Virus record (IMG/VR): IMGVR_UViG_3300049793_000050
Coordinates: 1-52,541 of that record
From: a virus
DNA length: 52,541 nt
Reading direction: 5' to 3' (one strand)
Translations under genes and position numbers: made by a program
In this document: piece after piece, positions 27,378 through 50,325 of the stretch
How the letters are laid out: each line of letters begins with the position of its first letter
Numbering within the stretch: position 1 is the first letter of the stretch
The notes under the pieces: model-generated
The model's database searches: none
Seen by the model: only the letters and a program-made list of their open reading frames with translations
Told to the model about the DNA's origin: nothing

Positions 27378-27845
27378 TCACGATACGGAATCGCCTTCTA
27401 AAAGTTCCCCAGCATCCTTGACCATGTGGGCGATGTTATATCGTGGGTTGAATCGGGCAATGTATTCACGCTCAAACAAGTCTAAATTGCAGGCATCAAC
27501 GGGAACAAAGCAAATGCGCTCGAATTCTTTGGCGCTCATGACGTGATCCGACATCCTGCTGAAAAAGTTCGTGGTTTTTCCAACATACACAACGCTGTCG
27601 CCGTCGACTAGAAAGTAAATTCCAACGCCATGCCTTGGAAAAATATTCTTCGCCTTGATCGCGGTAATTGCAAGGAAGGGGCCTTTCGCATGAGGCGGTT
27701 TTTTCATGCTCGCTATGACAACTGGGTTGCCGTGCAAATTGGTCGCGTGCTTTACTCCATAGCGCTTCAACCAGTATAGTTGCGCCTTCGAAGTAACACA
27801 GCCGGTAAATCTGGTTAACTCATTTTTTTGCATGTATGGCGACAC
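27378..27845 (-). CDS. GIY-YIG nuclease with N-terminal DUF4224-like domain
   Basis: A 155-residue protein. Residues 8-47 (ELTRFTGCVTSKAQLYWLKR, then a YGVKH turn and GNPVVI) match the DUF4224 pattern of a small DNA-binding-like domain usually found as a separate gene beside integrases, as here at 29671-29892. Residues about 72-145 are a GIY-YIG nuclease: GIYFL (75-79), VVYVG (85-89), catalytic Arg97, Glu125 in LFEREYI and Asn137 in RYNIAH. The GTG start has an excellent GGAGG six bases upstream. It lies on the opposite side of attP from the integrase. Confidence 0.85.
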   Translation of the reverse strand: MSPYMQKNELTRFTGCVTSKAQLYWLKRYGVKHATNLHGNPVVIASMKKPPHAKGPFLAITAIKAKNIFPRHGVGIYFLVDGDSVVYVGKTTNFFSRMSDHVMSAKEFERICFVPVDACNLDLFEREYIARFNPRYNIAHMVKDAGELLEGDSVS

Positions 27846-27999
27846 CGAGAACCTCCGTAATTGGCCATAAAATCTGTGCTATTAACGCTGCCACAATTCA
27901 TACGAAACAATGACTTACCAGCGCAAAATACTATCGGCAATAGCACAATCGAAAGTGTACAACGCATTGAATGCAAAGGGAAAAGAACAGAGTAGAAAG

Positions 28000-28049
28000 T
28001 CAGCCTTCTAAGCTGAGGGTCACAGGTTCGATTCCTGTTGGGCAGACCA
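28000..28049 (+). other. attP: attP core: 3' half of tRNA-Arg(TCT)
   Basis: The sequence contains a tRNA anticodon arm TCAGC-CTTCTAA-GCTGA (anticodon TCT), variable loop, T arm ACAGG-TTCGATT-CCTGT, acceptor 3' strand TGGGCAG and ACCA, but no matching 5' half upstream. A 3' tRNA fragment next to a tyrosine integrase is the signature of a phage attachment site that restores the host tRNA gene on integration. The left limit of identity with the host cannot be set from this window. Confidence 0.88.
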
Positions 28050-28064
28050 GCCCACAGGGCTTTT
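28050..28064 (+). terminator. Short terminator-like hairpin after attP tRNA fragment
   Basis: GCCC-ACA-GGGC followed by TTTT directly after the tRNA 3' end. It would terminate the reconstituted tRNA transcript in a lysogen and may be part of the captured attachment core. Confidence 0.55.
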
Positions 28065-28099
28065 CGCAGGAGTAGACACTAACCACTGTGCTATAAAAT

Positions 28100-28597
28100 T
28101 CAGGTTGCGCTATTCAATTCCTTTTTTCCTCCGCGGTAGATGTTAAATTCAGGCTTCAGGCTGCCAATGTAAATCTGTTCTAGGCGATCCATTTCAACAC
28201 CGGCTGCCGGTATCATATGCGTCGAGCCGAACGGGATCTCATTATTTTTGACGTGCGTGGCAATCCGCTCGGAAATATTGGCCGACCTTCCGACGTAGAC
28301 GATTTTTCCTTCGTTAATAAGAAAGTAGACACCCGATCGCGGCATCGCGGCCGACATCGATAGGATATCTGGCGCCGCCAGCAGCTTGCTATTTGGAATG
28401 CCTTCGGAGGCTTCCGTGCGCGTCACCATATACGCAAACGCTTCAAGCGCCTCTTCGAATGTCGCGCCCAGCCTGAACTTTTTCTTATGGTCCCACCACG
28501 GCTCAGTGCCCGGCGGAACCTGATAGTAGTAAGCTCCATGCATGCGCTGCCATCTGTTGGGCAGGCCTTCGTTTTCTGGATTTCTTGGTCTTGGCAT
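28100..28597 (-). CDS. GIY-YIG nuclease with integrase-type N-terminal domain
   Basis: A 165-residue protein. The first ~60 residues are almost a copy of the integrase N-terminus: 36 of the first 55 positions are identical by my count (MPRPRNPENEGLPNRW, then HGAYYYQVP, FRLG). Residues about 85-157 are a GIY-YIG nuclease: GVYFL (89-93), IVYVG (99-103), Arg111, Glu140 in DRLEQIYI, Asn152 in EFNIYR. AGGAG precedes ATG 28597. It lies between attP and int on the same strand, 16 bases after the integrase stop. Confidence 0.87.
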   Translation of the reverse strand: MPRPRNPENEGLPNRWQRMHGAYYYQVPPGTEPWWDHKKKFRLGATFEEALEAFAYMVTRTEASEGIPNSKLLAAPDILSMSAAMPRSGVYFLINEGKIVYVGRSANISERIATHVKNNEIPFGSTHMIPAAGVEMDRLEQIYIGSLKPEFNIYRGGKKELNSAT

Positions 28598-28613
28598 GCT
28601 ACTCCTTGGGCTA

Positions 28614-29678
28614 TTAAAACTTTTGTTTCAGTGGCTTTACGTGCTCCGGTTTCCGTCGATAAATCCTTTTTGTGACTGCGCTGTCAGCATGCGAAAGCAG
28701 TGACCGCGCATGTTCCAGGCTGTCCGCATCGCTCGCACACTTCGCCCGTAAATCATGCTCGGTGAATCGCTTGGTGACTTTCGTTTCCTTCAATACGCGG
28801 TCCATGAATCGCTGCCACATTGAATCCCATCCGTCTGTCGTTTCCTTCGTATCGTGAATGTAGCAAGTTCCTTTGCGCGTACAAAACAACCACGGCGCGA
28901 TATGGACCGGGCGACTCGCAAGAGCCGATTCGACCGCTGCACGCAAATCCGGTGTCCATTCGTAGATCGTAGTTTTGCCAGTGGAGCCGGTCGTCTTGTG
29001 GCGCTGAACCCGAATTCCTTGCTCTGTAAAATCTTTCGCCGGCTCAAGCCGCAACATATCGCCGCGGGAAATTCCGGTTAGCAGTTTCAATCGAATATAG
29101 TTTTGCAGCATGACCACACTGCCTTTCTTTTGTTTGCTCCCAAGCGCCAGGCATTCAATGATTTCCCAATCCTCCACATACCGATCGCGCGGACCTGGCC
29201 CCTCCATCACGATCTGGCCCTTGAACGGGTGCCGGTCGATATATCCCCATTCAACCGCCTTCGTGAAAACATGCGAAAACAGTTTTACCTCTTTCATGGC
29301 TGGAATGCGCATCTTTGCCTTATCGACATAAATGTAAAGATGCTGCGGGCGTATTGAGGAAAGCGGCATTGCGCCGAACGGCTTGCGCAGGCGAGCAACG
29401 GCACGCTGATTCTCAACCTGCGTGCGCACGGCCTTTGTTGGAACCACCTCAAGCGCATAGCGGTCCAGTAATGCGCCGATGGTCTTGGCGCCGTCGATTG
29501 ACTCAAGACGCGCCGCCCATGCCCTGTAAGCTTCGGGTAGTGTCTTGCCAAGCCTGAATGTTTTCTTTCCGTCCCAAAGCGCCTCAAGGCCTTGCGGAAC
29601 TTGGTAGTAATACGCGCCATGGGTTTTCTTCCACCGAAGTGGTAGCCCCATGTTCTCCGCATTGCGCTTCCTAGGCAT
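28614..29678 (-). CDS. int: Tyrosine integrase
   Basis: Site-specific recombinase for integration at tRNA-Arg; 354 residues. N-terminal domain (1-60) is probably the arm-type binding domain, then a SAM-like core-binding domain (about 62-155), then the catalytic domain with Arg205 (GISRGDML), a Lys near 228, His308 and Arg311 (EHDLRAK), His330 (LLSHADS) and nucleophile Tyr340 (KRIYRRK). The end lies about 560 bases from attP with the GIY-YIG gene between. The start overlaps the DUF4224 gene by eight bases. Confidence 0.95.
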   Translation of the reverse strand: MPRKRNAENMGLPLRWKKTHGAYYYQVPQGLEALWDGKKTFRLGKTLPEAYRAWAARLESIDGAKTIGALLDRYALEVVPTKAVRTQVENQRAVARLRKPFGAMPLSSIRPQHLYIYVDKAKMRIPAMKEVKLFSHVFTKAVEWGYIDRHPFKGQIVMEGPGPRDRYVEDWEIIECLALGSKQKKGSVVMLQNYIRLKLLTGISRGDMLRLEPAKDFTEQGIRVQRHKTTGSTGKTTIYEWTPDLRAAVESALASRPVHIAPWLFCTRKGTCYIHDTKETTDGWDSMWQRFMDRVLKETKVTKRFTEHDLRAKCASDADSLEHARSLLSHADSAVTKRIYRRKPEHVKPLKQKF

Positions 29679-29892
29679 TCATTGCTTCCCAATTTGGCTC
29701 GGCAGGTTTGGACGATTTTACGCCTTCCGTGTCTCCGAATTCCTTTTTGACATGCGATCGCAAGATAGCAATGCTGCCATCGGCGCGCACTTTGTGCTGA
29801 ATGCCGAGGAAGTTCAACACAGCGACTTGAGCCCTGCGGTGCGTTCTGTGCGTCAGATCCTTGATTTCAATCGGCTCTAAAAACATACCCAT
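29671..29892 (-). CDS. DUF4224 protein, possible excisionase-like partner of integrase
   Basis: A 73-residue protein with FLEPIEIKDLTHRTHRRAQV and FLGIQHKVRADGSIAILRS, the DUF4224 pattern. These small proteins lie next to integrases in many proteobacterial prophages, overlapping int, and are thought to bind DNA; an excisionase-like role is inference. ATG 29892 has GGAGG eight bases upstream, and a second ATG two codons on is possible. Its domain recurs at the N-terminus of the nuclease at 27378-27845. Confidence 0.78.
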   Translation of the reverse strand: MGMFLEPIEIKDLTHRTHRRAQVAVLNFLGIQHKVRADGSIAILRSHVKKEFGDTEGVKSSKPAEPNWEAMNA

Positions 29893-50249: not shown

Positions 50250-50325
50250 GCCGATTTAGCTCATCTGGTAGAGCGCCGGTTTTGTAGTCCGGATGTGATG
50301 GGTTCGAGTCCTGTAGTCGGCACCA
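50250..50325 (+). tRNA. tRNA-Thr (anticodon TGT)
   Basis: A 76-base cloverleaf with encoded CCA: acceptor GCCGATT/AGTCGGC, D arm GCTC...GAGC, anticodon loop TTTGTAG giving TGT, T loop TTCGAGT. The anticodon stem has a T-T mismatch at its loop-proximal pair and the T stem uses wobble pairs, so it is somewhat degenerate, but all invariant positions are present. Reads ACA codons. Confidence 0.9.

Follow-up and report, generated by a model that had tools for sequence, protein, structure and literature searches.

The DNA analyzed here, referred to as the window, is the whole 52,541-nucleotide (52.5-kb) stretch of IMG/VR record IMGVR_UViG_3300049793_000050. Four of its genes, all on the minus strand, lie around a phage attachment site. 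Positions 28614 to 29678 encode a tyrosine integrase (int) of the lambda-Int type with an arm-binding N-domain, assigned through PHROG integrase families and its family profile, and directly upstream of int is a gene for a separate DUF4224 protein, a putative excisionase (29671 to 29892, in a frame open to 29907). On the other side of int is nuc2 (28100 to 28597; 165 amino acids), which joins an integrase arm-binding-type N-domain (residues 1 to 62) to a GIY-YIG nuclease domain (residues ~88 to 156), followed by nuc1 (27378 to 27845; 155 amino acids), which joins an excisionase-like DUF4224 domain (residues 7 to 46) to a GIY-YIG nuclease domain (residues ~75 to 140). Between the two nuclease genes lies the attP core (28001 to 28049, plus strand), the 3′ half of a tRNA-Arg gene from the TCT anticodon region to CCA, identified by its sequence and by the tRNA-Arg att sites of loci L019 to L023. 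This att site is common to Oxalobacteraceae prophages whose integrases are 65 to 67% identical, and in L019 to L023 it adjoins int. The reading frames and the flanking of attP by two nucleases had both been called in the original prediction, and each was confirmed. The record also contains a complete tRNA-Thr(TGT) gene (50250 to 50325).

Both nucleases belong to the GIY-YIG superfamily. Pfam GIY-YIG (PF01541) scored 22.9 bits in nuc1, against a cut-off of 22.6, and 24.8 bits in nuc2; the catalytic Tyr/Arg/Glu/Asn positions are retained in both proteins, as had been noticed at the outset for Arg, Glu and Asn; and AlphaFold-type predicted models of both match the UvrC GIY-YIG domain 1yd6. For nuc2 (pLDDT 84) this was the best solved match, and the model places three strands and a helix ahead of the GIY-YIG fold, while for nuc1 (pLDDT 77) the match was to the GIY-YIG part and the N-domain gave weak MerR-like matches. 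DUF4224 (PF13986) scored 30.0 bits in nuc1 (cut-off, 22) and 37.2 bits in the 29671 to 29892 protein, bearing out the domain calls made earlier. PHROGs place DUF4224-type proteins under the family annotation "excisionase," and nuc1 matched both PHROG excisionase and endonuclease families. Membership in the DUF4224/excisionase class is indicated by profile and by position beside int, with nuc1 itself lying across attP from int.

The N-domain of nuc2 is identical to that of the neighboring integrase at 36 of the first 55 residues, as originally counted, and at 39 of 66 (59%) overall, with an E value of 1e-22 and a shuffle z score of 36 that rule out chance similarity. It also keeps 26 of the 32 positions that are conserved at ≥90% across 43 Int N-domains. 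The family profile of the window integrase matches lambda Int (1z1g) from residue 1 (E = 2.5e-8), and the N-domain of the nuc2 model matches the lambda Int N-domain 1kjk weakly (E = 0.18, probability 0.60), as the first relevant non-nuclease entry. A Pfam search with the nuc2 sequence alone gave no match to PF09003, the canonical lambda arm domain; its own link to the arm-domain class runs through homology to its integrase and the weak 1kjk fold match; two related nucleases, those of loci G311 and G312, do score above the PF09003 cut-off (41.4 and 22.2 bits, respectively), and their neighboring integrases carry PF09003 too. By these comparisons, the nuc2 N-domain belongs to the lambda-Int arm type.

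In the closest relatives of the window, the nuclease-free loci L019 to L023, the int stop codon lies 95 bp from the tRNA T-loop in every case, and this gap holds two TTGAATAGCGCA-like copies at a spacing of 19 bp, of which the first runs over the int stop codon. The TTGAATAGCRCA-like repeats that follow int in relatives, arranged in tandem with 19-bp spacing, are predicted arm-type sites. Tandem 12-mers spaced 18 to 20 bp apart occur right after int, within its first ~60 bp of downstream sequence, in 24 of 74 prophage loci of the integrase family (L019 to L098), against a count of 1 in one control window and 0 in a second; the first copy often overlaps the int stop codon.

Predicted arm-type sites in the window occur on both sides of the attP core and border nuc2 on both sides. 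On the minus strand, TTTTATAGCACA (28087 to 28098) lies 19 bp from the next copy, TTGAATAGCGCA (28106 to 28117), which overlaps the last codons of nuc2; TTTAATAGCCCA (28607 to 28618), at the junction of int and nuc2, overlaps the stop codon of int; and GTTAATAGCACA (27875 to 27886) marks the far arm, between the core and nuc1. A possible weaker site on the plus strand, AATAGCACA (27939 to 27947), is a repeat partner of the other predicted sites. Because nuc2 sits inside the int-attP interval, that interval measures ~580 bp in the window, compared with 95 bp in the nuclease-free relatives. With a matrix built from L019 to L023 only, the sites ranked first (28106), third (28607), sixth (28087) and eighth (27875) across the whole window. 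This ranking is a fairer test than the count of four att-region sites with at most one mismatch (null mean, 0.03), because the degenerate consensus behind that count was chosen after the window sites had been seen; with two mismatches allowed across the whole window, 16 matches against 13 expected were not unusual. All three members of the nuc2 family (nuc2, G308 and G693) end in a tandem arm-like pair that faces the core. Judging from these patterns, nuc2 very probably binds the predicted arm sites. Of the earlier proposal that the nucleases are targeted to attachment-site arms, the targeting itself is well supported by sequence (the lambda-Int arm type, the predicted sites and the int-adjacent fusions of many phages described below), while the choice between own and rival att sites, and cutting, stay putative. 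Predicted 19-bp-spaced arm repeats follow int in about a third of relatives, which makes binding directly testable.

A motif scan of IMG/VR for the GIY-YIG group of the window returned at least ~150 loci, a sample rather than a census, and on inspection by eye several of their N-termini appeared integrase-like or excisionase-like. We compared each GIY-YIG N-terminus with every ORF of its own locus by per-locus blastp. Among the loci listed, the neighboring integrase was matched in the window, G308, G310, G312/G313, L278, L303, L306 and L293, and the match in G318 was a small Xis-like HTH protein overlapping the start of int; the only other match was an antisense artifact in L175. As same-locus matches were confined to Int or Xis-like proteins, a generic DNA-binding domain unrelated to att sites was ruled out. 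The integrase N-domains found in the fusions represent at least four mutually dissimilar types: that of the window, G308 and G693; the lambda type (PF09003) of G311 and G312; that of G310; and that of L278, L303, L306 and L293. The nuclease N-domains of G310, L278 and L303 each resemble that of their own neighboring integrase most closely.

Fusions of the excisionase type also adjoin integrases, with DUF4224 in G309 (35 bits), AlpA in G316 (53 bits) and HTH_17 in G318 (30 bits). The sole DUF4224 found in the G309 contig (L264:4803-5300) and the sole AlpA found in the G316 contig (L269:6140-6742) are GIY-YIG fusions directly upstream of int, and these elements may have a nuclease fusion as their excisionase. 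The search that had been suggested, for GIY-YIG proteins fused to integrase N-domains or DUF4224, therefore found such fusions adjoining integrases in many phages rather than usually far from att sites and integrases. The one exception is G047 (L309:16968-17489), which joins a lambda-arm-like domain to GIY-YIG; it lies in a bacterial genome, apparently within an element remnant, and no integrase turned up in the ~36 kb to one side of it or the ~1.7 kb to the other. The particular pairing of the window is not conserved: no other contig examined was seen with both nuc1 and nuc2, and a peptide-pattern search found no relatives of nuc1. Because a class-wide genome search gave mostly UvrC-length frames, fusions appear to be rare in the sampled genomes. 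In Yuavirus BL4 and Clover (L338:3012-4321 and L007), moreover, a GIY-YIG gene immediately follows one annotated as encoding the small terminase subunit, and mobilizable plasmids, such as one of Citrobacter (L336:4830-5360), encode a GIY-YIG protein with a related linker and nuclease domain from a gene flanked by trbI and a KfrB-domain gene.

The fused copies keep the catalytic Tyr/Arg/Glu/Asn positions in nearly every case despite high divergence elsewhere. This argues against the possibility that the proteins are noncatalytic regulators whose fused domain occupies arm or Xis sites or represses its own gene, the GIY-YIG domain being a relic or a dimerization module. The start of nuc1 does lie ~30 bp from an arm-like site, and I-TevI can double as a transcriptional repressor (PMC10448857), but we regard this explanation as very improbable.

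The nuclease genes are often contiguous with int, in varying positions and orientations: downstream, upstream, divergent or across the core. Among loci with a visible tRNA-type att, the window, G308 and G310 have the order int-nuc-attP, G309 has nuc-int-attP and L003 has nuc-xis-int-attP; in G693, the nuclease is on the other side of the core and faces it. Integrases were nearby for 7 of 7 genes with class A N-termini versus 11 of 50 with other N-termini (Fisher p = 1e-4), a comparison that is partly circular because four of the class A members were found through the same-locus test. Members picked by N-terminal sequence alone escape this circularity: int is ~490 bp away in L118 and adjacent in L142, L147 and L149, and L183 is cut by the contig end. 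The 22% of other GIY-YIG genes that already adjoin integrases set the baseline. For class B, which was labeled by eye, the count was 5 of 7 (p = 0.015). The same design recurs beside unrelated integrases, which suggests that nucleases directed at attachment sites are a repeated invention of phages, although the GIY-YIG domain is too short for its tree to prove independent origins.

The original prediction also held that the DNA-binding domains had been copied from the integrase neighborhood. This was borne out in part only. In a tree of N-domains that includes 43 integrases, nuc2, G308 and G693 form a cluster of their own (support, 0.986); nuc2 thus seems to be an old fusion, not a fresh local copy of the int N-domain, and this grouping rules out a recent in-place duplication of int. 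Identity between nuc2 and the G308 and G693 nucleases is now 42 to 50%, with catalytic residues retained. Likewise, the DUF4224 domain of nuc1 and the separate Xis-like protein share only ~21% identity.

Presence of the nucleases is sporadic, and 80 genome loci with integrases of the window's family yielded no GIY-YIG gene near int. The GIY-YIG gene of L003 (5686 to 6282), just upstream of xis, ends where 86% DNA identity to L002 starts, which puts the nuclease exactly at the edge of homology between these related phages. Phages are known to carry free-standing homing endonucleases, such as the Seg proteins. The sporadic distribution, the L003 boundary, the nuclease lying next to its presumed target with arm sites on both sides of nuc2, and the many relatives in the same GIY-YIG motif group that have unrelated N-termini away from integrases could all be expected of plain selfish homing genes that lodged at attP without benefiting the phage, the arm sites serving only as their own insertion target. 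We nonetheless think this quite unlikely as a full account: homing alone leaves unexplained both the repeated capture of the resident integrase domain type and the excisionase-domain fusions. It is hard to tell from a competitive role, because the activity is the same in both.

We lean, if only slightly, toward a model in which nuc1 and nuc2 are attachment-site-directed endonucleases that cut attP of related phages, in competition and homing at once. The integrase arm-binding domain would dock nuc2 on arm-type sites at attP, and the excisionase-type domain would dock nuc1, probably at Xis sites within an arm of attP; nearby DNA would then be cut by the tethered GIY-YIG domain, as it is by modular GIY-YIG homing nucleases. 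The likeliest target would be the stretch from int to attP in a related phage or satellite that occupies the same cell and shares the integration module but not the nuclease. Such a cut would put the integration locus of the rival out of action, and the nuclease would spread when the break is repaired from the genome that carries it, so that one activity would serve both ends. The resident copy might be spared, as we conjecture, because the insertion parts the arm pair from the 3′ end of int. The facts under this model, namely the domain identities, their recurrence, the int/attP adjacency, the predicted arm sites bordering nuc2 and the sporadic presence, are all read from sequence; competition and homing agree with the patchy occurrence, with an insertion bounded by arm sites and with the precedent of the Odn nuclease discussed below.

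Several observations weigh against a competitive role. Because the N-domain of nuc2 matches the phage's own integrase type, its own attP should be bound too, and the G047 fusion is of integrase type with no integrase found nearby. In G309 and G316, the only DUF4224 or AlpA found in the contig is a nuclease fusion, which points to a part in excising the element that carries it. The main rival explanation is that the nuclease assists site-specific recombination of the phage itself: recruited to the intasome by its arm or Xis domain, it would nick or cut the arms and favor integration, excision or directionality. By analogy, a GIY-YIG nuclease assists integration of Tsy, a tyrosine-recombinase transposon, its loss leaving transposition reduced, though still occurring (PMC10293859). 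Frequent contiguity with int points the same way. Against such a role stand the rarity of the nucleases (0 of 80 loci, as above) and their variable position and orientation relative to int, and the contigs without a separate Xis may be incomplete; we consider it unlikely. Integrase-type and excisionase-type fusions may also differ in role.

More tentatively, and as something we judge possible but doubtful, these proteins could form a widespread, convergently assembled class of att nucleases, in which temperate phages would repeatedly fit GIY-YIG with their own integrase-type arm domain or excisionase, as an immunity of the integration module that destroys attP of coinfecting phages or satellites on the same recombination system. 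Competition among temperate phages is usually framed as repressors, entry exclusion and defense systems; if the model is true, a nuclease guided by an integrase DNA reader makes the attachment module itself a battleground. It would also yield a rule for finding such systems: look for a nuclease carrying its neighbor's DNA-binding domain, the target site being predictable from the neighboring integrase.

In searches of open-access literature, no GIY-YIG nuclease fused to an integrase arm domain or DUF4224 was described. The lambda Int N-domain (1kjk, 2wcc) is homologous to those of the window Int family and several nucleases, which differ from lambda Int in having a GIY-YIG domain in place of the recombinase part. 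The Tsy transposon resembles the window in that a GIY-YIG gene shares an operon with genes for a tyrosine recombinase and a small HTH protein, and its GIY-YIG gene raises transposition; the available portions of that report describe no fused recombinase domain, and the nuclease there aids its own element (PMC10293859). Free-standing GIY-YIG/T5orf172 phage homing endonucleases share with nuc1 and nuc2 a modular DNA-binding domain plus nuclease, sporadic distribution, exchange boundaries and proximity to a presumed target, but no att-site target or integrase- or excisionase-derived domain is described in the available portions of that source (PMC10448857). The nearest precedent is Odn (Gp88), the origin-directed nuclease of phage ICP1, a GIY-YIG-superfamily protein that cuts a satellite's origin through a borrowed RepA_N domain (PMC8263062). 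Like nuc1 and nuc2, Odn is a small chimera: its DNA-binding domain, at the N-terminus, has a homolog in another protein of a mobile element (RepA_N, 42% identical) and takes Odn to the site of that protein (PMC8263062). Odn combines RepA_N with a nuclease of the T5orf172 subfamily and targets a satellite replication origin, whereas nuc1 and nuc2 combine DUF4224 or an Int-arm domain with PF01541, are not of the Odn type and have attP as their predicted site; the Odn domain matches a rival's protein, whereas theirs match the neighboring integrase or excisionase. A chimeric, site-directed GIY-YIG nuclease is therefore a known idea, of which the repeatedly assembled attachment-site version is, as far as we found, new.
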